Below, piece by piece: positions 5,001 through 59,460 of a stretch of 64,000 bases of DNA (position 1 is the first letter of the stretch; every line of letters starts with the position of its first letter). The stretch comes from Capitulum mitella (taxonomy: Eukaryota > Arthropoda > Thecostraca > Pollicipedomorpha > Pollicipedidae): NCBI GenBank assembly GCA_030062745.1, contig CP099849.1, positions 9,759,767 through 9,823,766 of the forward strand. Reading direction: 5' to 3'. Below the pieces are notes generated by a model. The model was not told the origin of the DNA. It ran no database searches and saw only the letters and a program-made list of their open reading frames with translations. Position numbers and translations under genes: made by a program.

Positions 5001-6931
5001 CGGCTGCAGTTGTTCTGGTTGAACCTCTGTTTTGGGTCAAATATCGTTGACTTGGTGCTGATATAGGACCTCGTTGCGTGCCACACGCCAAGTCTAAGCA
5101 GATCGTATCACCACATTGCCACGAGGGAGCTTAAAGCGACAGGTTGTGGCTACTTTTAGTCAACGTGAGTGCCCTTATGAAGACAAACATTGTTGTAATG
5201 CATCCATGCGTTCCAAAAATATATTTGGTGCGCGCCTGAGCGAGGAGGTCTCTCACGTGATGATGCATTGTACCAGTTAAAGAAACAGTTTAGTTGTCGA
5301 ATGTCTTGTGTAGCCCAATTTGTTGTGTGTTCTGGGTGATGTAAAAAATGGTATATTGTGTTATGTCGTAAAAGAATTGGAATGTTGATTTTCCTCAACA
5401 AATGGTTATTTATAACATGAGGTTGGAAATGCAAAAAGTCGGCTTCAGGGGGTTTCGTGGTTCGTTCCCAGAAGCACTTCATGGTGGGTTCGGGTTTCTT
5501 GGTTGATAGCCGTATCCGTTTAAAGGTAGCTGAAGATGACCTCCCTTTACGCTGAACAAATAAGAGAATTAAGTGATGCAGCTGCAGTCGTGTTTTTGCG
5601 GTTGAGGGCCGCTTCAGGCCGCCCTAGTTTGCTGTGTTGGCGAAGATGGGGCGGTGTGGCGGTGAGTTGGTTCGGAACATCTAAGACGCGGTCGCGCGGT
5701 CGCCGTTACTGCCACCAGCTCTGTGCTAAAACGGCAGCGCCGCGACCGTTTCCTGTTGTGCCAGTGCTGCCATCTCCCGGGCCGGCGTTTAAATAGCTCT
5801 GCCTCCAGTATAGGGATAGTGTTGTCCGTGCGTTTTAGTTTGATGTATGGCGGCTGGACGTTTTGTGACAGTTTTCCCTGTGCGGCTAATGCGTCGGTAA
5901 GCATGTTGACACGATTCCGGTCGTCCGCCCTGTGAACGGGATTGAGGCGTGAGTCGTTTTGTGGTCAGGATTGGAGTCGTTAGTTGTGGAGCGGGGCGGT
6001 TGGCAGCCCTGCGTGAGATATTGTGCAGGATTTGGAAGGGAAAATGTGTCCTGTCTCCCGGCGCGGGGTGAATGGCCGTCTTGCATGCATGGTTGAAGTG
6101 TGGGACGTGGCGGTGTGTTTACACGAGAAACCTTGCCTCGCCACAACGTTTAAGTGTGTAATATGTGGCCCGTAGAAACAGGGTTTGATACGTTTCGCTG
6201 GTGTGTTGTGGAACGTCGTATATGGGTCCTGTTCCGTAGCAGAACAGTCGTATGATATTTCCCGGCGTCCGAATACTGAACGGTTGAAATTCACGAATGC
6301 GCCAGGGCCAGCCGATCGGACGATGGAGTTTTGAATTTGAAGTGGCTCGGCCGCTGGCGTCTGAGCCGGCAGGCCTCACCGTGCCGTGTGCTACTCACAC
6401 CGCTGTCTCCGGGCCCCGCAGTCAGTCTCCGGCCGGCGGAGTCCGACTCCAGGCCAGGGAGTCCGGCGCCACGTTTTAGAGTCAGTCTCCAATCCTCGGG
6501 GTCTTGCTCTGGGCCGTGGAATCATTCTTCGGACTGAGCGGCCGGGCTTCACTGCTGGAGACGTGCTCGTCGTGTTGGAGTCGGCCTCGGGGTCTTTGAT
6601 TGGCGCCGTGCCGTTCGTGCGGTCGCTAGCCGCCCGGTCCGACTCAGGACGGTGTCGAGTCCGGTCCCTGGACCCTGAGCCGTGCTCCAGGCTGCGATGA
6701 GATCCCTGTCTGCAGGCGACGGCCGCGGGCCGCGCGGGCCATGCCGCGGTCGGCGCGGACCCTGCCGCGGTGCATGTGCAGGTGGCCGCCCGGTCCGAGC
6801 CTGCGCCGGTGGCGGAGCGGCCGCGGTGCCGGTGCCGGTGGCCGTGCGGGCCGTGCGGCGGCCGGCGGCGGTCCTGGCCGCGGTGCCTGTGCCGGTGGCC
6901 GTGCTGCAGGCGCTCTGTTGCCGCTCCCCAG
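2025..6931. other. Intron upstream of the PDZ exon
   Basis: No exon can be supported. From about 6300 the base composition turns GC-rich, and 6700-6925 holds short degenerate GC repeats of the type GCCGGTGGCCGTG leading to the acceptor at 6931. I searched for the expected preceding CASK exon, ending in a DEPM-like motif before a GT donor, and did not find it. Confidence 0.5.
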
Positions 6932-7096: not shown

Positions 7097-8874
7097 GTAA
7101 GGCGCGCGGTGGGGCGGGCCTCGGGCGGCCGGCCGAGGCCGCAGTCCGCTCCGGTCACGGCAGTAGCGGTCGGTCGTGGCCCGCGGCCGGCCAAGGCGTG
7201 AACAGGTCGTCCGTTCAAGGTACGTGCCATGCCGAGGGTTGCAGGGACGCACGCGGCTTGTTTGGCCGGAATGATAAACGTCGGGACTGGATGGTGGATT
7301 GCGATCAAGCGAAGCCAACCGAGAACGGCTGCTGAAAGTTTGGAATGTTACGCCCTCGCGTTTTGCGCTAGAGAGTGGCATTGATGGGAGCGCTGTTGTG
7401 CATGTAAGGTTCCGCTTTCGCTTGGAGATGCCATGCTTATGCTGTTTGTGGGAGGTGGAATGCTTAGGAAGGTCATATGAAGAGAAGGGTGTTTCAGCGT
7501 GACGTCATCCGACTCCCACTGCGTCGCCTCCTTGTTGTCTCGAACGTGTTTTGGTGTTCTACATTTGACATAAGTGTCGCGTATTTTCGCCAGCGTGCGG
7601 TCGTTTCGAATCAATCGGATGGTGTAGCGAAGTGATGCTTAGGGTAGTGATCGATTGGACAAAGATAGCCGCCGTGCCGGGCGGCGCCAGCGCACCGACC
7701 GCACGAACGGCGTGGCTGAGAATACCCGCTGCCGTCGAGCGCGACTCTGGTGCGCGCGCACTGTTGCAACTCTGTGTGTCCGCAGTGTGTCGCGACGTGT
7801 GCGAGGATGTTTGCGAAACTCGTATCGTATAGCACACATTATTCGCCATATTTATCGACGAGCCCTTAAATCGTTGGGATGTCGGTCCGATGAAAAGTAT
7901 TGCCTGAACCCGGTAAAACAGTCATGATGATGAAACAGACAGACGAATAATGTCTGGTATGGTATTAACCTTAATTATGCATTCTGCAAGCTGCCTGTCA
8001 CCCTGCGTTTCGCATGTATTTGCCGTTTTTCTGTATGTAAGGGATTCCCCTCTGCGAACCAAGTGTGTGAGACTAGGTGGCCATAGCCCCGTGCATGTGC
8101 CGTCCTCTGGCGTGTTTCGCAGTAGCCCTCTCGGATGGAGTGGGCGCAGTGTCCTTGTTTGAGGCGCCCCCGCGGCCGATCTCATCTGCGGGCCGGTGTC
8201 CAGGCGATGGCTGCGTCGTATCAGGTCCGGACGAGGTGCCAGTCGCCGTATGCGGCCGAAGAGTGCTGAGATGTGGAACCCAGCCGCGATGACGATGACG
8301 AGATCTTGCGCTGTTTCTACTCTGCGTCGTGGCGCTGTGTGGTCAGACTGGTCCGCTAGGCTCGCGCCGAACCGTTCATGCTGCTGACCAAACCGTTCAT
8401 TTGGTCGCCACAAAACTGTTGCCGTGCTGTAGTCTGAGTATGCCTGCAATACATATCATACGTGCTTTGCAGGTGGGGCGCCCGCAGTTATTTACGAGAT
8501 TCCGGTTTCGCCTGTAGTATACTTTTTTGTAGGGATTACCCAGGCATTCAGGCATTAAATTTCGTGGTTCAGAGAGGCTCTGTCCGTTGAAGTTTCAAAC
8601 TTTGCAGGTCTTTGTGCACAAAATGGCCGGGTCAGAAGTCCTGGCGAATGCGGATAGAATTTCCCACCTTGACGACGAAGAAAGCTTAAGTGTAAAGGAA
8701 GCATGGTGTTTGTCAGTGATTACGGCTGCCTGATTGTCATGTCGGAGTCGTCCGGCGGGCCGGTCCGCCGTGCTCCGGGGCCGTGCCCACGCCCCGCCTG
8801 TCTACGCCCGCCGTGCCTACGCCGGCCCCGTCAGCCGTGCGCCGCCGCCGCTGACTGCCGCGCCTCTGTTGCAG
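7097..8874 (+). other. CASK intron within the PDZ domain
   Basis: Phase 0 intron of 1778 bp with donor GTAAGG and acceptor TCTGTTGCAG. The first 150 bp and the last 130 bp are very GC-rich; the middle is mixed. No further feature seen. Confidence 0.9.
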
Positions 8875-11701: not shown

Positions 11702-12806
11702 CTAACAGGCAATAGATAATATATAATGCTATAATATATCAAGGTGTAATAGAGAAGAAAAATCAAAATAAAGCATAACAGACTCTCTGCCGGCAATATT
11801 TTACAAGGTTTAGACTATGAAATTGAGCGTAGAAAAGTTGCTCGCTCGGGGGAGGGTGATGGCCACCCACCCTCGCCAGGTTTTCCTTAGACTGCCGGTG
11901 AGCGGTAATCTTCATGAGCCTGAAACTTGCAAAAGTTGACTTTACATCATTTCCGCATCTTTTTCACACGCTAAAGATATGACCAGCTCATGTTACGTCA
12001 CCGAGTTACGACACCGTTGTCGAGGGCCTGCGGGCAGTTTTTCTCGATCCGAGCCATATTTTTGTCAAGATTTTTACTTTCCCCAGGAGCCTGGCGAGAT
12101 GTGGGGTCGATTTTCGGTACAGAATTGTTCGGACATACGCTTGACACTGTATCAGGCTTCGAAAGACATGTGACCTCTCCTTTCTCATGTGAGACCACTG
12201 ACATTATAAAACGTCAGTCTGATTTCGAATCCGTTGTAGGATAATTTATGTCTGTGATGTCAGTGATGAAAATGATTTTTTATCCGCCCCAGTGATCAGA
12301 ACTCTAGCATGTGATGACCGGGAAATGAGTTTTGGCACTCGTAGCATCATAAATGCTAACGATAGTTAACCTTTCATTGACCTGGCTTTGATCTCAAGCA
12401 GAAAACAGTATCTGACGATTAATTAATTTGAAAACCAGTTCTCCACAACAGCTTGCTAATGTAGCTGGAATGTTATGAGCCGACTACGGTGGCGGCAGAG
12501 ACGGCAAACAGTGTGGTGTTCTCTTTTGCTGTGACCTGTTATGTCATTAGTAGACCCAAAAGGGGTTAAAGCGAGTATATTTGGATTGGAGAGAAACACG
12601 ATACGCTCGTTTTTGTTTTGCTGTTCTCGTTTGACTAGGATGGAAGTTGAATGGGAGCAACCTTGCTGGGCGTAGATGAAAATTCTTAGGTCCGCCAAAT
12701 GCTTATCTTTACACTGAATTATGACTCATGCTGAATCTACCTATTCTTCAGCGTCGCTGAATGATCCTCAGTCATTCATAGAGCGAGCAAGAAGTGTTAA
12801 ACGTCA

Positions 12807-29300: not shown

Positions 29301-29409
29301 CCCCCCTCCCTCCATGGGAGGTGGGTGATCCGCGTGTCTGCTCCCGGCACCACCCCGTGTCTCCACTTGCCTCCACCCCGCGTGACTGCCGGCTCTACGG
29401 ACGTGCTTC

Positions 29410-29525
29410 CCCGTGTCCGTTGTCTCTAATGACGTTTCCCCCTGTGTTTCCCCTGTGTCCGCTGTCTCCATTGACGTGTTTCCCTGCATCCGCCGCGCCG
29501 TACTGACGTGTTTCCCTGTGCCTCT
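29410..29525. repeat. 31-bp minisatellite, left block
   Basis: Copies of a unit with TGACGTGTTTCCCTGTGTCCG lie just before the 47-bp array. The same family resumes at 30450, so the large array appears to have expanded inside this one. Confidence 0.8.
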
Positions 29526-30450
29526 GCTGGCTCTGTGTGTGTCTCTGTCTCTGTGTTTGGCGGTGTGTCTGCTGGCTCTGTGTGTGTCTCTGTCTCTGTG
29601 TTTGGCTGTGTGTCTCTGCTGGCTCTGTGTGTGTCTTTGTCTCTGTGTTTGGCTGTGTCTCTTCTGTCTCTGTGTTTGGCTGTGTCTCTTCTGGCTCTGT
29701 GTGTGTCTTTGTCTCTGTGTTTGGCTGTGTGTCTCTGCTGGCTCTGTGTGTGTCTCTGTCTCTGTGTTTGGCTGTGTGTCTCTGCTCGCTCTGTGTGTGT
29801 CTTTGTCTCTGTGTTTGGCTGTGTCTCTGCTGGCTCTGTGTATGTCTCTGTCTCAGTGTTTGGCGGTGTGTCTCTGCTGGCTCTGTTTGTGTCTCTGTCT
29901 CTGTGTTTGGCGGTGTGTCTCTGCTGGCTCTGTGTGTGTCTCTGTCTCTGTGTTTGGGTGTGTGTCTGCTGGCTCTGTATGTGTCTCTGTCTCTGTGTTT
30001 GGCTGTGTGTCTCTGCTGGCTCTTTGTGTGTCTCTGTCTCTGTGTTTGGCTATGTGTCTCTGCTGGCTGTGTATGTGCCTTTGTCTCTGTGTTTGGCTGT
30101 GTGTCTCTGCTGGCTCTGTATGTGTCTTTGTTTCTGTGTTTGGCTGTGTGTCTCTGCTGGCTGTGTATGTGTCTTTGTCTCTGTGTTTGGCTGTGTGTCT
30201 CTGCTGGCTCTGTATGTGTCTTTGTCTCTGTGTTTGGCTGTGTGTCTCTGCTGGCTCTTTGTGTGTCTCTGTCTCTGTGTTTGGCTGTGTGTCTCTGCTG
30301 GCTCTGTGTGTGTCTCTGTTTCTGTGTTTGGCTGTGTGTCTCTTCTGGCTCTGTGTGTGTCTTGGTCTCTGTGTTTGGCTGTGTGTCTCTGCTGGCTCTG
30401 TATGTGTCTTTGTCTCTGTGTTTGGCTGTGTGTCTCCGCTGGCTCTACTG
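29526..30450. repeat. 47-bp minisatellite, about 20 copies
   Basis: Unit built of CTGGCTCTGTGTGTGTCTCT followed by GTCTCTGTGTTTGGCTGTGT, with single-base variants and 41-47 bp lengths. Because the unit lacks stops, all three forward frames stay open for about 900 bp and give Cys/Val/Leu/Trp-rich translations (for example CLCVWLC); these are repeat artefacts. Confidence 0.97.
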
Positions 30451-30935
30451 ACGTGTCTTCCTGTGTCCGATGCCGGTCTGACGTGTTTCCCTGTGTCCGC
30501 TAGCTCTGTTGACGTGTTCCCCTGTGTCAGCCGTCACTGCTGACGTTTTTCACTGTGTCCACTGGCTCTACTGGCGTGTTTCCCTGTGACCACTAGCTCT
30601 ACTGACGTTTCATTGTGTTCACCACCTCTACTGACATGTTTTCCTGTGTCTGCTGTCTACTGACGTGTTTCCCTATGTCTGCTGGCTATGCTGACGTGTT
30701 TTCCTGTGTCCGCCGCCTGTATTGACGTGTTTTTCCGTGTCCGCTGGCTCTTCTGACATGTTTCCTTGTGTCCGCTACCGGTACTGACGTGTTCCCCGTG
30801 TCCGCTGGCTCTGATGACGTGTTTCCTTGTGCCCACTGCCGGTACTGACGTGTTCCCCCGTGTCCTCTGGCTCTGATGACGTGTTTCCTGGTGTCCACTG
30901 CCCGTACTGACGTGTTTCGCTGTGTCCGCTGGTCT
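30451..30935. repeat. 31-bp minisatellite, right block, abutting exon
   Basis: About 15 copies of CTGACGTGTTTCCCTGTGTCCGCTGG-like units alternating with CTCTGATGACGTGTTTCC variants. The last unit runs to within 10 bp of the exon at 30944, so the branch region and pyrimidine tract of that acceptor come from repeat sequence. Confidence 0.92.
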
Positions 30936-30943
30936 CGGCCCAG

Positions 30944-31042: not shown

Positions 31043-31103
31043 GTGAGAAGCGGTCACCTGGCGGCCGTGGTCGGCCGGCCGGCCCCTGGCTCTTTCCGCC
31101 CCG

Positions 31104-31390
31104 GCCTGACCTGACGACTCCGGACGCTGTGGCCGCCCCTGCCTGACCTGACGACTGCGGACCCTGCGGCCGCCCCGGCCTGACCTGACGACTCCGGACC
31201 CTGTGGCCGCTCCGGCCTGACCTGACGACTCCGGACCCTGTGGCCGCCCCGGCCTGACCTGACGACTCTGGACCCTGTGGCCGCCCCGGCCTGACCTGAC
31301 GACTCTGGACCCTGTGGCCGCCCCGGCCTGACCTGACGACTCCGGACCCTGCGGCCGCCCCTGCCTGACCTGACGACTCTGGACCATGTG
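31104..31390. repeat. 37-bp GC-rich minisatellite, about 8 copies
   Basis: Near-identical units of GACCTGACGACTCCGGACCC followed by TGTGGCCGCCCCGGCCT fill almost half of the intron between the two SH3 exons. Minus-strand translation gives a Gly/Arg/Ser-rich repeat that is not a gene. Confidence 0.97.
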
Positions 31391-31695
31391 GCCGCTCCGG
31401 CCGTGCGCCGCCGGAAAGCAGGGTCGAGCTGACGGCTTTCTGTGGTCGGCGTACTTTCGTGTGGTTTTTCATCGCGGTAACCGGCGGCCGCTTTCGCTCC
31501 ATGTCGGCGTGGTTGTGGGTTCGCCGGCTGGCGCGCGTAAGCGTGATGTAGCACATCCTGTTCGCTTGTACTGGGGTACGTGTACATCAATGTACAACGT
31601 ACTCCATACAGACATGGGCTACGCCCAGTCGTTCGTGTCGACCATCATCTTGTCGACCATACAGGCGTGGTTCACCGTTACACTCGCTGCGGCAG

Positions 31696-34869: not shown

Positions 34870-35330
34870 GTGAGTAGGCCGCTGTTTGTAGTTTCTTTGA
34901 TTTGTACGCCACGCTGAGAATGTTTGGAGTGCATTAGATATATCCGAGACGTATCTGGTGTGCATGAAGTCTGTGGTTGTGACCTTTCTGTTGTTTTTTT
35001 TGGGGGGGACAGCGAATGTATTGTTATTTTACGACTGTAGCTGTCTGTATTGCAAGCATTGCTTGCCTGTGGAACTAGGGTAAGGTACCGCTTGCAGATT
35101 GCTTGACTGTTTGCCTCGCGATGAATAGTTGGCGTGCGCTTGTGTGCGGCTTGGAAGTCGGGCTTTAAAATCAGGACACCTGATGCAGTTTCGTAAAATA
35201 ACCATTCAAAATAAGCCGTGTATGTATTATCAAGGGTGCTATTTGCTCGCTAAGTGGAAATCTCACTGCACGCTTGATCATAGAAGCCCAGAATGTTGGG
35301 GCATAAATTGCTGAAGTGTGTGGCCGGCGT

Positions 35331-35378
35331 CAGCGTTAAGGTAGCCAGTCTCGTCAGCGTTAAGGTAGCCAGTCTCGT
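35331..35378. repeat. 24-bp direct repeat, two copies
   Basis: CAGCGTTAAGGTAGCCAGTC occurs twice in a row in the intron just before the last full CASK exon. Confidence 0.9.
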
Positions 35379-35435: not shown

Positions 35436-35591
35436 TATGACGGCAGCCTGGAGCGCCTCACCAAGGAATCGGACCTGCTGAAGAACGCCTACGGCCACTT
35501 CTTCGACCTGACGATCGTCAACAACGACATAGAGGAGACGATACAGATTCTGGAGGACGACATCAACACCTTGGGCTCCAAGCCGCAGTGG
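35436..35591 (+). CDS. CASK: CASK exon: GK domain C-terminal part
   Basis: 52 codons: [20 protein letters not shown], then [20 protein letters not shown] and [12 protein letters not shown]. Acceptor CTGCCGACAG, donor GTACGT, phase 0 at both ends. It ends exactly at PQW, after which every CASK known to me continues VPVSWVY or VPVSWLY. If the donor is not used the frame adds only VRA and stops, so the normal C-terminus must come from the tandem terminal exons downstream. Confidence 0.98.
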
Positions 35592-35776
35592 GTACGTGCC
35601 TGATTCTGCCCCGACCGGCCGCAGGCCTGCCGCGTCAGTTGGTCTCCTGAGTTTGTTCGTGATCTCTGGTGACTGCGTCACAAGTGCCGCCGGTGTGAGT
35701 CTATGGACAACGTGTCTTGCTTGCTGCAAGTGCAGTTTTGTTCATTTGCTGGTGGAGATTGTTCCATACCTCGGCC

Positions 35777-35800
35777 GTTCCGGTTTCGTTCCTCTACTGA
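35777..35800 (+). pseudogene. Relic terminal exon (unit 0), VPVSFLY-stop
   Basis: GTTCCGGTTTCGTTCCTCTACTGA translates VPVSFLY and stop, and its downstream flank (CAGTGTCCGGTGCGTGC) matches the array units, so it is a diverged ninth copy. Against unit 1, four codons differ silently and one changes Trp to Phe. There is no AG immediately upstream (CTCGGCC), so it cannot be spliced in at this place. Its CTACTGAC still lies about 20 bp before the unit 1 acceptor and may serve as that acceptor's branch point. Confidence 0.8.
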
Positions 35801-35820
35801 CAGTGTCCGGTGCGTGCTAG

Positions 35821-35844
35821 GTGCCCGTCTCGTGGCTTTACTGA
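35821..35844 (+). CDS. CASK: CASK terminal exon, unit 1 (VPVSWLY-stop)
   Basis: First usable copy of the last coding exon: 7 codons and TGA, in phase with the exon ending PQW at 35591, giving the conserved CASK tail PQWVPVSWLY. The tail forms the last strand of the guanylate-kinase-like domain against the SH3. The acceptor is CGTGCTAG; the other units have CGTGCCGCAG. Seven further equivalent copies follow, so which unit is used in mRNA cannot be told from the genome. Intron to this copy is 229 bp. Confidence 0.85.
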   Translation: MPVSWLY

Positions 35845-36166
35845 CAGTGTCCGGTGCGTGCCGCAGGTGCCCGTCTCGTGGGTTTACTGACAGTGTCCGG
35901 TGCGTGCCGCAGGTTCCCGTCTCGTGGCTGTACTGACAATGTCCGGTGCGTGCCGCAGGTGCCCGTCTCGTGGGTTTACTGACATTGTCCGGTGGGTGCC
36001 GCAGGTGCCCGTCTCGTGGCTTTACTGACAGTGTCCGGTGCGTGCCGCAGGTGCCCGTCTCGTGGGTTTACTGACAGTGTCCGGTGGGTGCCGCAGGTGT
36101 CCGTCTCGTGGGTTTACTGACAGTGTCCGGTGCGTGCCGCAGGTGCCCGTCTCGTGGGTTTACTGA

Positions 36167-39989
<3,823 letters not shown>

Positions 39990-40198
39990 CAATTAATGAC
40001 GCACCGTTGAGACCGCACTTTGCCGTCGTCAGTCGATGACGTACCACTCTAAGCCGTGCTCTGATGACGTCGGTCGACGGCGTGCCGTCAATCAGGCCGT
40101 GCTCTGATGACGTCAGTCAATGACGCACAACTCGAGGCCGTGCTCTGGCGACGTCAGTCGATGACGTACCGTTCGAGACCGTACTCGCTGATGACGTC
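39990..40198 (-). repeat. 41-43 bp tandem repeat of the gene's 3' end
   Basis: Read on the minus strand, five units begin GACGTCATCAGAGCACGG or variants and end CGTCATCGACTGA. The first, 40198-40154, is the in-frame C-terminus (DVISEY...YVID and stop) of the minus-strand gene. The later four lie beyond the stop and are out of frame or broken by small indels, though most keep a terminal GACTGA. Confidence 0.85.
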
Positions 40199-41246
40199 CA
40201 GCGCGTCAGGATCGTCGACGCCGCTGAACTGGATCCAGCCGACGGCGGCCAGCCGGTAGAGCAGGGCGCCGATCAGCTCCAGCAGGGGGCTGAGCGCCTC
40301 AGAGCGGAGCAGGCGGCGCATCAGCGCAGAGGCGGCCGGCCGGGCGGCTCGCTCCACCAGCGGCGTCCACCGCTCCGGCTCCTGCTCCTGCTCCGGCTCC
40401 TGGCCCGGCTCCTGGTCCGGCTCCTGGAGCGGCTCCTGGTCCGGCCCCCTGGTCCGGCTCCGGCTCTGAGCAGTCGCTGCCGCCGCCGGCCGCGTGGCAG
40501 CGGTGAGGAGTCACAGACGGCGGGATCTGGTCCGCGGCAGGCGCTTGGGAGCCGCCTTCCGTCCGGCGGTCCTTCCGACGGTCCCCCAGAGCCTGCTGGT
40601 CCCCGCGGCGATCCCCCAGAGCCTGCCGGTCCCGCGACGTGTGGCCGGCGCGCTCTGAGAACCCCCTGCCTCGGCCCTGACTGCGCCCGCGGGCCCGGTT
40701 CCTGCGGCGCCGTCTTCGCCCGCCCCGGAGCCGGCGCCGGCGTTTGGTCGGGCGTCTCTCTGCGGCTGTTTTCAGCCGCCTGTCCGCCCTGCTGGGGCCG
40801 CTGCGAGCCGGGTCCGCAGCCGGAGACGCCGGCTCAGAGGGCGCTGGCCGTCGCCACCCCGCCGACGGGCGCCGCGGCGCCGCCGAAGGGGTAGCCGTCC
40901 GCGGTCCGGGGCGGTCCTGGTGCGGAGACGCGGCCCGGTCCCCTGGTCCATCCCCGACCAGCGGACCACGGCCCGCGGTCCGGTCCGCCGGTCTCCGGCC
41001 TGGCCGACCCGGAGGGAGGGTCTGCCAGTGCGGAGAACCGCGAGCCGTGGTCTGGTCCTGTCTCCAGCCCGGCGGGCCAGACCGAGGCGCCGCTCGAGCC
41101 CGCCTTCTGGTGTTCAGCTGCCTTGAAGCCGGCTTCGGAAGCGAAGTGCTGCGCTCTGCGCGTGATGGGTGGTGACGGCCAACCATATCTGGCGTTCGGT
41201 ATTTCCTGCGAGCCGGAGGATTTGGACGACACCGCAGACTGTGGTC
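40154..41246 (-). CDS. Secreted Arg-rich protein, terminal exon (probable)
   Basis: Exon opens after acceptor TTTGCCCTCACCTCAACAG and is phase 0, matching the donor at 45603. Order: DHSLRCRPNPPARRKYRTPD, a Pro/Arg/Gly-rich middle, a very basic run (TKRRRRLRGGRRRRRRNRAR), a RQALGD/QQALGDRRKD repeat, an acidic SDCSEPEPDQ, QEP repeats, then a hydrophobic C-terminus (LLELIGALLYRLAAVGWIQF; FSGVDDPDALDVISEY; YVID). The QEP part and C-terminus are one frame off from what precedes: the shift falls at a run of five G/C near 40446-40450, so it is either a sequence error, a true frameshift or an unrecognised short intron. Without the shift the frame ends at 40299 in Gly-Ala repeats. I do not recognise the family. 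Confidence 0.55.
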
Positions 41247-42947
41247 CTGTTGAGGTGAGGGCAAAGGCTTCTTCAAGAGGCTGGCGCTGCGAGGGAAACA
41301 TGTCTGTGTTATATGCGAGGTCAACTTCATGTTCAAGAATTATTACAAAAATCTTTAACCGCGGTACTTGAGCTTTGCCGTATGGTCATCATACCGCGAT
41401 GAATGTATATATGCAGCTTCATGCACCTTTCGTCGTCGTAGGCTTGTCGTCCATACCGATATATTTGTATATGTTCTACTCACCAATATACATGCGTCCT
41501 ATGCATCGCTATGAACACAATTATGAAGCAAGTCACCAGCATTAACATGTAAATATCATGGTGACCAGACCTGTACAAAAAAAAACATGGAATTGTCATT
41601 ATTCATCCTGAATAAATAGCGCCTTTGGACCTGAACGCCTACGCTATATTCAAACGTCCATACCTGTTAATTTGGTTGTTTTTTCTACCATGTTACTGAG
41701 TGCTGCGGGCCTTTCCATGTGGCAGAACCGGCCGCGCCACCCGCGGTAAATTGGGTAAGGTCTCTGTTGGGAGAGTTTTCCTAATTTTCGCTCATTTAGA
41801 GACATGAAAAATAAAACAAGGACCGGAGTTCAAATCTTCCAGGTAATTCCAGGCATAGCGAGTCCAACGTCCACAGTAAACCAGACTGCGGATGTTGGGT
41901 TTTTGACGGTCTATGGCTGTTCAAGACGAGTCCCTGACGGTCGTGCGGATTATAGCAGGCTGAGGCCGGCCTCGCCACAGATTGGTACACCGTAACTGAT
42001 TTAGTGGCGTGCACAAGGGTACTTAGCCCTTCAGGACCAGTGATTCCATACCGGTGTGGAGGATGCGCCGGGTATTTTATGTTGGCGTCAGCTTGCGTAT
42101 GAAACATCACGGGAAGCTAACGGCTGAAATGGGAATCGCAGCCCATTCATCGATGAACAAACTCATTATTGCATACCCTCTAGACCTTTTCCGAAATGTG
42201 AGTTCTTGCTACTGACCATGAATAAATGAAAGAGAGGGGGTTAGAGAGAACGAGGGGGAAAACAAAGTGAAGGGAGGGGAGATGCAGGGATCGCTTTCTG
42301 TTCCAGATAATCTCGTTGTTTGAAAGGATGTCACCAAGTCTGGAGCAGCTCTACATTTGGTCCAGGATGCAGTTTCCTCGGCTGAGCGTCTTCCGACCCA
42401 CATTTGCGCGGCGGCGGTCGGTGGGATATGGCGTGCGTACGTCAGAGGAGTGCCACTTGTCCGGGAAGAAACTTACTGTTTGAGCCCGCCTCCGCTTTTT
42501 GCTGTCATCATGCGCATGGCGTGCTTCACGCAGACCGCGAAAAAAGGCCGGAAAAACGTGGTTGGTGGGAAGACGTGCGGCGGGCTCAGAACGAAATCCG
42601 GGACAGCGCTGCTGGGCTTCAGATATCGCCGAAAACCCGGCTAAACGAAAGTGTGATGCTGAAATTGGGCGCTCGCGGCGCAGGGGCCGCTGCACGTTTT
42701 CACTGCAGACACACCGCCTGACTGCATGAAGGAAAACCGATTCATGAATTCATGGTTCTCTTCTGAATGTTTAAATACATAGATGGGAACCAATAAGACC
42801 ATTCGAGGGAAACGCAGTTACATGTCGCCGAATCAGTGATCTGCTTGGTTCGATTCATTGACTTCCCTTGCACATAATGCTAAGATATAATCAAAGTACT
42901 AAGTGCTAAACATGTGGGATAATTATAACTATGGCTGATCACCACTG

Positions 42948-43016
42948 TGGTTGGTAGCTCAGTTGGAAGACGGCTGGTCTTCCCGTACTGCCAAGGCTGG
43001 TTCGAGTGTCCGACCA
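42948..43016 (+). tRNA. tRNA-like sequence, probably a pseudogene or SINE head
   Basis: TGGTTGG at the start pairs with CCGACCA at the end as a 7-bp acceptor stem. TAGCTCAGTTGG fits the A box and GGTTCGAGTGTCC is near the B box with an extra base. The D and anticodon arms do not fold cleanly and the length of 69 is short, so I do not assign an anticodon. Confidence 0.35.
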
Positions 43017-43422
43017 GGGCATTCGACATTGGCTCGTGAGTCATTGCCGGCAAGTGGTCAGCAGAGGAACGTACTGCCTACCAAAAAACAATGTTTTCGA
43101 AGGCGCTTTACACGTTTTCCTTCAAATCGGCATTTGTCTAAAAATGACTGGTCGGATGAGTTCATTCTCCGAACAACGAAGACTGCTTAAAACGGGCTGT
43201 GATTTCAAACACTGCCTGGAAAATCATTCGGAAAATTTGTATGTACGAAAAGTATGCATGTCCAGAAGACATTATCACCAGCCTTCTCATGCGGGGGTCA
43301 TGGCTGCAAGGACAAAGAAGAGGCTAGGAGCGGTTTAATGACTTCAAATAATTTGGATGTTATTTTAATTTTAGCTTTCCAGCGCGTCTCTCGGCTGACT
43401 ACCTTAGCCTTATTCTCGTCAG

Positions 43423-44661
43423 GGGATTAAATCCGCCCCCCCCCCTCGGGTTCTTTGCTTGCTGATTCCAGCCTTTTTGACGCAGCTTCATGAAATTTGG
43501 TGACTCTTCCAAGCTATTCCTTCTACGTGCTTTGACAAAATTTCGGAATTTTGTTTTGCTCAGGGGCGGAGCCAGGAAGCGTTTTGGGAGGCACCTCAGA
43601 CCATTTTTGGCCCTGTTGAGGGTAAAAGAAAAATGACTGCCGAAAACATCGTTTTTAAGGTAGAATTTTAAAACCACATATGGGTGTATAGCTTAATAGA
43701 TGGGAAGCCTACGAATACAGTTTTCTTCAGCTGAGGTTACTTTACAAGATTAAGTCAAGGTCAAAATTCAAAATTTAGTTTTATAGTAATAAATTCCGCG
43801 CTTTTTTCAAAGTCAAATCCGAAATATATGTGACATATGTGGCTTCCCTCCACTTATGTACCGAGTTTCAGGGCGATATTAGGTTGGGTCACGGAGCTAT
43901 GACCTAAAATGTCAGTGCGCGTACCCTATATCATAATAGCCGTAAATGAAATTTTTGAAATAGGGTGAATTCAAATGACTGAAGACGTTTTCAGATAACA
44001 TTTAATCCATACGAGATCATTCCAAGCGACTCCAATGTCACTGGAGGTCATTTAAGGTCAAAGGTCGCAAGTTGATCTGAGGAATATGTGACCATGACAG
44101 TTCCCCTTTTTTTAATGTCCCTGGCACTGCCTATGCTAGCATTATACAAACATTGCAATACGATTTGTACTTCTTCAGCATAACATGACTATTGGAAGCT
44201 AAAAAGGTGCTTTTAACTTTCTTTTTAATTCAGTTTTTGAAAAACTAATCCTCCTATTCTTGAAACCCTGTGAACACCTCTGAATTTTCTCAAAATTTCA
44301 AATGTGTATACCAATGGTAAAATTCCCATCCATAATCTCTCAATTAATGCCAATTTCATCAAAATCGGTTCATAAACAATGGAGTTATAAGAAGCCCAAA
44401 AATAACCCCCATTTTGACATTTTTCCCGGTATCCACCCCTTTCAAAATTTTGAAAAACTTTTTTTAATGTAGTTTGCGTCATGGCAAATCGATTGCCGTT
44501 TCTTGCGATGAAATCAAATGCGTAGTTCTCGAGATCTCGGGGGGTAAATCCGCCCCCTGAGATCCGGTATTCGATCCGATCCGATCGGAGATCCGAGATC
44601 TGAATCCGGCCCCCATGGCGGGAATCGGCCATACCGTCTAGCCCTCCGGGAATAGAGTTAA
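43423..44661 (-). mobile_element. Family 1 TTAA MITE, copy 3
   Basis: Reverse orientation: its 5' end is at 44661 (CCGGGAATAGAGTTAA on the + strand), its 3' end degenerate near 43423 (GGGGATTAAATCCGCCCC). Near the 5' end the G-run block is duplicated and interrupted by a GATCCGATCCGATCGGAGATCC stretch unique to this copy. Confidence 0.88.
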
Positions 44662-44761
44662 ACTACCTAGTACCTCATTTGAATTTTTTTTAGAACATTT
44701 TGACCTGGGAATGTAATAGCTAAACGTTTTCTTTTACAAGAGTGGAATTCCCGATGCCTTG

Positions 44762-44790
44762 CAATACAATACAATACAATACAGTACAAT
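44762..44790. repeat. (CAATA)n microsatellite
   Basis: Five to six CAATA units ending with CAGTA and CAATG variants. Confidence 0.9.
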
Positions 44791-45602
44791 GCGATGCAAC
44801 AAGTTGGTTAGGAAAAGCTAGGTACGAAGCAAAATCGGCGCAGAGAGATGTAGGCAGTGACAAGCATACGACAGGAGAACAGTCAAACTGAATGTCTCGT
44901 GTCAGAGGCATGTACGCGGGACGGCATGCGTCCGTGCTCTTGCGACAGCAATTTCACGAGATATGGGTAGTCAAATTTCCTAAATGTGACGTGCAGTTCC
45001 GGCTCATGGCATTAATAGCATCGTATTGATTTAGACCTTACATTCGGCGTCATTTTAGCATGAGGAGGCTCTCTCGGAGTTATGTCCACGCATTTTCAAA
45101 TACTGACGTTTGGAGCCTTAAATATATGCTTAGCAAAATTTACGTTATCGTCACGGGCAAGGAATCTTAGAGCCTTAAAGAAAATGAAGTTGTTTGGCTT
45201 GGACTAGCAACCGTCATGACGTTCTAAACGGACTTTAGCCAACTGACGTCAAATTACAGGCATAGGAAACAAAGGAGCTGGACAATCTAATTAGTCTACG
45301 GTATGATATAATCATCATGCACGACTAAATGAGACATTTAGTTGCATTATATTGGTTTTAGAAGGGCTCCCACACTTTATGGCGTGGTGCAGTGTTTTTG
45401 GTATTTCGTACGTACGTACCGATTCGTACCAGCCAGCGTTGACATCATTCTGCACGCATGAAAATCACCACACAGCCTATCTCCGACGTACTTGGAAGGG
45501 ACTACCTGCACCAAGCGTGGCCCTGTGCCTCGGCTGGACGGACGGCCAGGCTGGACGGACGGCCAGACCGCCGGCGGGCCTCCCGGAGCTAATGGAACTC
45601 AC

Positions 45603-45692
45603 CTGCGCGGTTGGCCAGGGCAGGGAGGCCGCCGCCAGATCAGCTGACGCCGTCCAGGCGAGCAGCAGAAGCGCTGCCGGCGCCGGCTCCAT
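45603..45692 (-). CDS. Signal-peptide exon of secreted protein (probable)
   Basis: 30 codons starting MEPAPAALLLLAWTASA, then DLAAASLPWPTAQ, ending at a consensus donor CAG/GTGAGT. The start has a textbook secretory signal: short N-region, LLLLAW core and A-S-A cleavage site before Asp. An in-frame start further upstream (45791) would bury this signal, so I prefer 45692. The phase-0 end joins in frame to the exon opening at 41246. No coding exon is visible between them, but none is needed. Third positions are GC-rich like the CASK exons. Function unknown; secretion is inferred. Confidence 0.6.
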
Positions 45693-45776
45693 CTCCGACC
45701 TCGACCCGGCCGACTGTGGCGCGGCCCGCAGCCGCGGCGGCAGTCCCGGACACGCAGCGCCGCCTACCGTACCGGG

Positions 45777-45920
45777 CGACCGCAGCGCCATCTGTACCGC
45801 CCCACAGGCTGAGTGGGTCTGATCCGCCGCCCGCTAGCGCGTCAGCCGACGCGGCCGTCCCGCGCACAGAGCCATCTGTCGTACCAGCCGACCGCAGCGC
45901 CATCTGTGTCGCCCCACAGA
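45777..45920. repeat. Duplicated block upstream of the signal-peptide exon
   Basis: GACCGCAGCGCCATCTGT plus CGCCCCACAG occurs at 45779 and again at 45889, 110 bp apart, with a third CCATCTGT between. This lies in the 5' UTR or promoter of the minus-strand gene and is CpG-rich. Confidence 0.7.
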
Positions 45921-46341
45921 CTGTCCGGGCGCTGATTGCGGACCGCCCCAGAACTGTTAGCGGTAGAGCACTTCACGGATTGGATAACTCCGTGGATTGT
46001 GGATTGATCCGCAAAGCGGTTTGGACCGGATGAGAAAATTCAAGCAAGATATGGATAAGGATCGGACAGGAATTTTGGAATTTGCCAAGGCCATATGGAG
46101 TGGACGGATTGAAAATCAAATAAATTTCAAAAGATTATAAATGGACAATTTTTGACAGGGACGTCGATTTCTGTAAATGACTGGAGAGCCGACACAGAGG
46201 GCCCGGTGACTTAACCTCCCCCAAAAGTGGGTTTCCCAACGGATTAAGCTAACTTCATTTTGTCCAACGGCGATTTATGAGTTTTTTGTTCCTATTTATC
46301 AAATCAAAAATTGCACTTAATCCCATGTATATGTGCATATA

Positions 46342-57156: not shown

Positions 57157-58920
57157 CGTGATTGAAGTGATAACAGTGTGGTTTCCCGCCCATCTTATCT
57201 TCTGCAAACATGGTACCATATGTTGTCTGTTCCGAATTCTCAGCGCTCTTGAAAGCTGGAGTTTCAGGCGATAGCCGCGAACCGCAGATAAACGCAAACG
57301 TGCTCTGCAGACGACTAAGCTGTACTGAAGTGTGTGAGAGAATGCAGTCAGAGAAACAGAACGTGAACATGCTGCAAGAGCGCTCAGGTCTGTCGGTCTC
57401 ACCCGCCGCGGGTTAGACTCCACTGTTGATCAGTCGGAGACGGAGGGCGGCCGGGCGCCAACTACCGTTTACGTTCTCGTTCCGTCGTAGCATAGTACAA
57501 CAACACCGGTGGAGTCGTATTCCACCGACCATTGCCAGTCATCTCTCGTTCTGAACCTGTGTCAGCTGTGAAGCTGACACCCAGGAGTGCCTCCGTCGGG
57601 TGGTACCGTATTGCGCACTGTCAGCCGGCCCGGAGATGTTTTTTGGGCCCGTCCAGCCGCCTCTCCCTGTCTAGAACGCTTGAGCTCCGTGCACGGTTGT
57701 TGCATGCAACACGAGCTAAGTACTTGAAAGGAATTTGCGACTGGCTTCGAGATTTGGGCCTGGAGTCGACATGGTGTTAATATCTGAGCATGCAAAGCAA
57801 TACTTCATCCTCTTTTTTTTTAGGGCGGGCAGAATTGTTCCTCCCGGCGCCGGCAAACCCCGCTGCATTCGTTTCTGATGAATCCTTTATCAGTACACCT
57901 TGTTTATCCTCTTTCCCTGTGCATTTCCGCGGCGTTAGATGATTATGCGAGGTCGAGATCGTAGGCACCCTTTGGAGGCTGTTTTCCTAGACGATTATGA
58001 AGGTCTTCACGCATACCTACAGCGATTACAGCGCTGGTAATGCTGATGTTTTGGCTTTACTGAAGGTTAGTTTAAACGTTCCCCGTAAGCCCGTCACGTG
58101 CGGAGTTGTGTCCTGCGATTTGGCGCGTTTGGTGCTTGTATTGCACATAAGCTGGATTATGTGCATGAACTGTGAAAATTTGCGATCTCATTTGCCTTGA
58201 ATGCTTGTCGTGTGCAGGCCTGGTAGCAATGGGTCGTTCTCCGTGACTGAAAGACGCTAGAAACGAAGTAAGGGGTGTCATCATTGTGTTGTCAGCAATA
58301 ATTCGTTGTGCTTCTTGTGCGTAACGTTCCGATTTACGTGTTATCCAGGAAATAACTAGGAAACCTGCAGTGTGATTTACTGCTTGCCTCTTGACGCTGT
58401 TGTAGGTGCACATAAAATTGGTGAGGTCATGTATTTCACAGAACACGGGAGTACAGTAAGCCACTTGTGCAGGGATTATTGTGCTATGACGTGCGCCCGC
58501 GCTATGTATAGATTCTCGCCATTGTCACTCTGTCTCGTGCGTCATGTTCATATCGCCGGCAGTGGTTCGTTCACACGGATGTTGCCGCTGTGACATTTCC
58601 AAACCTTGGAAAACTGAAACATTCCGCTTATTTCCCAACTGGTACGTTTTACACCGTTGCCCAGTCCTTTGAAATGACGAATTGCTGTAAAATGGAATAA
58701 GAATAGGCGCAGTGACGTGCAAGGGAGAAGAAACAGGTCCGATGGTACCGTGCTGTCCTTTTTTTGTAAAATATTGCACCGAAGGCGATAGTTCAGAATT
58801 TTGTCCGAGATTCATGGCAGACAAACGTATCAAATATTCAGCGACATGCCATCACTAAGGAAAGGTTCCGCAAAGACTTTCCATATACCAAAGACGGCAC
58901 CACCGGTACTTTACTAGTCC
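57157..58920. other. Intergenic, nothing callable
   Basis: Normal CpG returns from 57180. Several frames of 60-130 codons, none with recognisable motifs or good splice context. Confidence 0.5.

Positions 58921-59217: not shown

Positions 59218-59460
<243 letters not shown>

Follow-up and report, generated by a model that had tools for sequence, protein, structure and literature searches.

A 46-bp minisatellite with a putative CASK terminal coding exon in each of its eight units in Capitulum mitella

The window analysed here is a stretch of 64,000 nt from one assembly of Capitulum mitella (GCA_030062745.1, contig CP099849.1), and all coordinates are positions within it. A CASK gene is present, as an earlier note on this DNA had proposed. 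Nine matches are collinear with human CASK at E <= 1.7e-5, the last of which is the penultimate exon, and the GK part matches PDB 1kgd (CASK) with E 9.9e-41. One extra human CASK match is listed at 12017, with an E of 0.59, which is chance level. The part that was matched has the PDZ-SH3-GK exon order and a MAGUK-type tail, with the kinase and L27 exons lying outside it. The penultimate exon stops in phase 0 at PQW (35591) and is followed by gtacgt; the same boundary had been read in the earlier note. Relatives of the tail are found in PDB chains of MPP5, which align through PQWVPSTWL. The tail stretch presumably completes the SH3 fold in MAGUKs. SH3 and GK have been described as interacting (PMC1978500).

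Downstream of the penultimate exon, eight tandem units occupy 35821-36166, each reading AG followed by V-(P/S)-V-S-W-(L/V)-Y-TGA in the phase of the preceding CASK exon (Table 1). TAC TGA closes 8/8 units, and the unit starts are spaced exactly 46 bp apart. Tandem Repeats Finder (TRF) reports 35795-36168 as 46 bp x 8.2 copies with 93% matches and 0% indels; the array is thus a minisatellite in the usual sense of head-to-tail units of about 10-100 bp with high identity. It also resembles a splice-site VNTR in having a predicted splice site inside the repeat unit, with an in-phase AG ahead of all eight units and none at a diverged copy further 5′, termed unit 0 and described below. Hence the eight modules of the earlier note are real, the view that they are copies of the final CASK coding exon is supported, and its proposal that any of them would give a near-normal protein agrees with the in-phase AG and near-identical tail of each of units 1-8. 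Its statement that the units are free of indels applies to the exact 46-bp spacing across units 1-8 and not to the whole array, since the spacer is 20 nt ahead of unit 1 and 22 nt elsewhere. The sixth residue runs L V L V L V V V, and the tail is the same up to V/L in seven of eight units, the exception being unit 7 with its Pro to Ser change. No extra units were found beyond the array, either 5′ of unit 0 or 3′ of unit 8.

Table 1. Positions of the CASK 3′ features and of arrays near CASK acceptors in the window
Feature	Position	Strand	Basis or remark
Penultimate CASK exon, GK domain end, ...SKPQW, donor gtacgt	35436..35591	+	boundaries inferred from sequence
Intron, penultimate exon to unit 0	35592..35776	+	no further unit recognisable; protein scan (stopped short of unit 0)
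Unit 0, diverged terminal-exon copy, VPVSFLY-stop, without AG acceptor (cggcc before GTT)	35777..35800	+	sequence comparison
TACTGAC, candidate branch point for unit 1; also Tyr-stop-C of unit 0	35795..35801	+	sequence motif
Unit 1, VPVSWLY-stop after TAG	35821..35844	+	sequence
Unit 2, VPVSWVY-stop after CAG	35867..35890	+	sequence
Unit 3, VPVSWLY-stop after CAG	35913..35936	+	sequence
Unit 4, VPVSWVY-stop after CAG	35959..35982	+	sequence
Unit 5, VPVSWLY-stop after CAG	36005..36028	+	sequence
Unit 6, VPVSWVY-stop after CAG	36051..36074	+	sequence
Unit 7, VSVSWVY-stop after CAG	36097..36120	+	sequence
Unit 8, VPVSWVY-stop after CAG; then non-repeat sequence (3′ UTR)	36143..36166	+	sequence
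Arrays near predicted CASK acceptors	6728-6904, 8780-8823, 30431-30932, 35328-35378, 35795-36168		within 60 bp upstream

Short tandem arrays are prone to assembly errors, and the true copy number could be lower, or one. Differences that distinguish individual units are present in units 1, 3, 4, 5 and 7, and unit 0 differs strongly from the others, which makes an assembly error improbable. It is more improbable still that the array goes unused and that the CASK tail is supplied by an exon elsewhere: the array lies directly 3′ of the penultimate exon and in phase with it, and no 6/6-residue match to VPVSWL or VPVSWV was found outside the array on either strand of the window.

The earlier note stopped at eight units and overlooked a probable ninth. 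Unit 0, GTTCCGGTTTCGTTCCTCTACTGA, lies in register, 44 bp 5′ of unit 1. It shares 18/24 bases with an L-type unit, the best score of any non-array position on the plus strand of the window (the runner-up, at 58040, has 17/24), although without the shared TACTGA the base match has a permutation P of only 0.004. Its peptide matches VPVSWL at 5/6 residues (P 5.5e-5 for a single place, a fixed register and its own composition); an equal match outside the array occurs at one other place on the two strands of the window (5488). Third codon positions account for five of the six bases at which it departs from the L-type unit (P 0.007) and for 5/7 of those at which it departs from the V-type (P 0.02), and because of this bias unit 0 looks like a sequence that diverged under coding constraint. 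An nhmmer profile of units 2-8 did not report unit 0 at E up to 1, and the 22 nt on its 5′ side have no similarity to the array spacer (P 0.29-0.82). CC occupies the position of the AG, and none of the upstream AGs checked by hand (35699, 35730, 35735 and 35757) is in phase with it. As judged from these comparisons, unit 0 is probably an older, decayed unit of the array.

The sequence TACTGAC, which we take to fit the metazoan branch-point consensus, is formed in the array by the Tyr-stop-C of one unit and stands 22 bases ahead of the next AG. Each Tyr-stop-C thus looks like a candidate branch point, and the ending of each unit could serve the acceptor of the next, so that a copied unit would bring its own branch point and acceptor with it. 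In the other CASK introns, CTGAC is found at -45 to -15 of 4/9 acceptors, compared with 3.7-3.9% of control positions (P about 2e-4, for a motif picked after the introns had been seen), and the looser TGAC at 5/9 compared with 15% (P 0.005-0.007). The array spacers are pyrimidine-poor: pyrimidines make up 50-55% of the 20 nt ahead of the AG, though the other CASK introns have only 50-75%. In addition, a CAG lies 4 bases 3′ of the candidate branch A and could compete. TACTGAC is present at both ends of the array, at its start (35795) and at the end of the last unit (36161), which suggests that the array was born by duplication between these direct repeats.

All stop codons in the three forward frames of 35821-36166 are one or another of the eight tail TGAs. 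Therefore entry in a wrong frame would also end in the tail, given enough units ahead; entry at the AG at 35802-35803, for example, would add 21 residues and then end in VPVSWVY-stop. This property, and the finding that unit 0 has retained its peptide in spite of lacking an AG, would fit an array maintained by selection as a buffer, in which several acceptors and tails guard against the loss of any one. However, the two stop-free frames per 46-bp unit may be due to chance, and unit 7 has its Pro to Ser change. Moreover, among units 2-8 the coding part has 5 changes at 4/24 sites and the spacer 4 changes at 2/22 sites. Variability in the coding part is thus not below that in the spacer, which neutral turnover would predict, and gives no indication of selection acting on the copies now present. 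Selection for a buffer is accordingly considered unlikely.

The presence of both L tails (units 1, 3 and 5) and V tails (units 2, 4, 6, 7 and 8) raises the question of regulated terminal acceptors, whereby the choice of unit would give WLY or WVY tails or 3′ UTRs of different length. V for L is, however, a conservative change, and the order of the two forms shows no significant pattern. A regular alternation had been described; both residues are indeed there, but the order given above departs from it in the last units, and 16/56 arrangements alternate as much, so that the alternation is not significant. The expansion of a 92-bp dimer, also suggested earlier, is rejected, for no period of 92 bp stands out in the mean differences between units (2.83 at lag 1, 2.20 at lag 2 and 2.00 at lag 4). 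The RNA fold of the array is not unusual compared with shuffles (z +1.16; 85/100 shuffles fold equally well). No AATAAA or ATTAAA lies between units, the first AATAAA within 36001-46000 being at 41611; the units are thus without standard poly(A) signals of their own and, as far as these two signals go, differ from alternative last exons, each of which is followed by one. In mutually exclusive tandem exons of the Dscam kind, a shared exon further 3′ is spliced to whichever copy is chosen, each copy having an acceptor and a donor of its own. Here a stop codon ends each unit, and GT words are present with no exon-donor-exon arrangement seen. We find nothing in the sequence that points to regulation of unit choice, and regulated acceptors seem rather unlikely.

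Minisatellites are not confined to the terminal exon. TRF gives 58 rows for the window, including short-unit and overlapping rows, and arrays cover 7.6% of it (35/58 rows, leaving out units of <=6 bp and rows that overlap an array already taken). Of the predicted CASK acceptors, 5/10 have an array in the 60 bp on their 5′ side, the terminal array included, compared with a background of 9.8-13.1% (P 0.0015-0.0055, with distances chosen post hoc and base composition uncontrolled). The counts at other distances are 3/10 at 30 bp (P 0.05-0.10), 5/10 at 100 bp and 6/10 at 150 bp. Upstream of donors there are 0/9 up to 100 bp and 2/9 at 150 bp, and downstream of donors 1/9 at 60 bp and 2/9 at 100 bp.

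A 31-bp array at 30431-30940 stops about 10 bp short of the predicted SH3 exon acceptor (30944). Within the units, TACTGAC occurs seven times or CTGAC 11 times, and the array has 3 AG where 11.2 are expected; this deficit is suggestive only, as the units are not independent. By its motifs the array looks like a repeated branch-point region. A common origin with the terminal array is not claimed: the uncorrected P is 0.011 among 30 comparisons (15 arrays, two strands), a 24-bp array at 35328 scored P 0.006 in the same test, and 5/597 other 510-bp stretches match the terminal array as well as the 31-bp array does. On the 3′ side of the SH3 exon, a 37-bp array (31096-31402, about eight near-identical units) has 16 CTGAC and no AG, with 9.8 expected from composition. 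A large pyrimidine-rich complex with 42-47-bp repeats lies upstream of the SH3 exon at 29403-30446, and perfect CT runs are found at 38655-38793 (69.5 copies) and 59222-59458 (118.5 copies).

The most probable explanation, in our view, is a 46-bp minisatellite whose unit comprises a branch-point-like TACTGAC, a short spacer, an AG acceptor and the complete CASK terminal coding exon of seven codons and TGA. It would have arisen when the segment bounded by two short direct repeats 44-46 bp apart, namely the branch-point TACTGAC and the stop TAC TGA C, was duplicated in tandem, and would have grown afterwards by ordinary minisatellite turnover. The penultimate exon could be joined to any of units 1-8, with the first competent unit or units most likely used most, and units downstream of the one used would form part of the 3′ UTR. 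With the same tail encoded by almost every unit, the array would be tolerated and largely redundant. Unit 0 probably represents the earlier terminal exon, or else an ancient copy of that exon; its AG would have been lost once copies downstream could replace it, and they would then have displaced it. The absence of a sign of selection, of a significant L/V pattern, of an unusual fold and of standard poly(A) signals favours this tolerated, redundant minisatellite over a regulated cassette. The many other minisatellites of the window, and the reported use of a second unit in the ABCA7 repeat described below, also speak for it. A further proposal is held only tentatively, as one that may well prove wrong: that the terminal exon is succeeded by its own copies through a splice module that propagates itself. 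Each copy would supply, in its Tyr-stop-C, the branch point of the next, and with every duplication a complete new last exon would automatically be formed; with the ancestral unit 0 having lost its acceptor, the copies would now end the protein and the end of the gene would migrate downstream.

Repeats that include splice sites are known from human genes. The unit of the CBS 31-bp VNTR presumably holds no complete exon with a stop codon. It is described as c.1444_1467+7 (exon 13-intron 13), with 24 coding and 7 intron bases in 16-21 repeats (PMC2630376, PMC1395315). As in the CASK array, the unit spans a splice junction, is constant in length and varies by substitutions; unlike it, the CBS repeat, as described, is on the donor side of an internal boundary, with neither branch point nor acceptor in the unit. 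In the 25-bp VNTR of ABCA7 intron 18, a splice donor starts each unit and the length of the array alters splicing; use of the site in the second unit, with one 25-bp unit retained, is reported (PMC5954066). Thus a splice site is inside every unit there too, but again on the donor side, and a misplaced junction shifts the frame, whereas in CASK the protein would be terminated in phase whichever of units 1-8 is used.

Internal tandem repeats at exon-intron boundaries of human segmental duplications are reported to give novel introns or alternative splicing patterns (PMC2812944). These resemble the CASK array in minisatellite expansion at boundaries, and differ in that a multiplied terminal exon is not among the features described in the available part of that report. 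In the potato RdRp gene, a tandem duplication with a branch site, polypyrimidine tract, 3′ splice site and exon sequence is described as having made a new intron (PMC4974935). The duplicated segment has a counterpart in the CASK unit with its candidate branch site, AG acceptor and exon sequence; the potato gene underwent a single duplication and so gained an intron that has a donor, whereas in CASK the unit recurs many times and a donor between units is not intended. Several acceptors could matter, because in human cells the terminal acceptor is reported to be coupled to 3′ end formation (PMC3737548).

The earlier note knew of no such array. For a terminal coding exon repeated in tandem this agrees with the matches listed from the open-licence PMC literature (titles and abstract beginnings, with subscription literature outside), none of which describes one; splice-site VNTRs as such are known, at CBS and ABCA7. 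If transcripts confirm its use, the array would amount to a natural experiment: a single intron would offer eight acceptors that are nearly identical and share one phase, and positional acceptor choice could be read from the reads alone. It would also show how a minisatellite may copy a conserved last exon and take its place with the protein unchanged, because the stop codon and the branch point share one word. Compared with the systems above, what would be new in CASK is a splice-site repeat on the acceptor side that multiplies a complete terminal coding exon.
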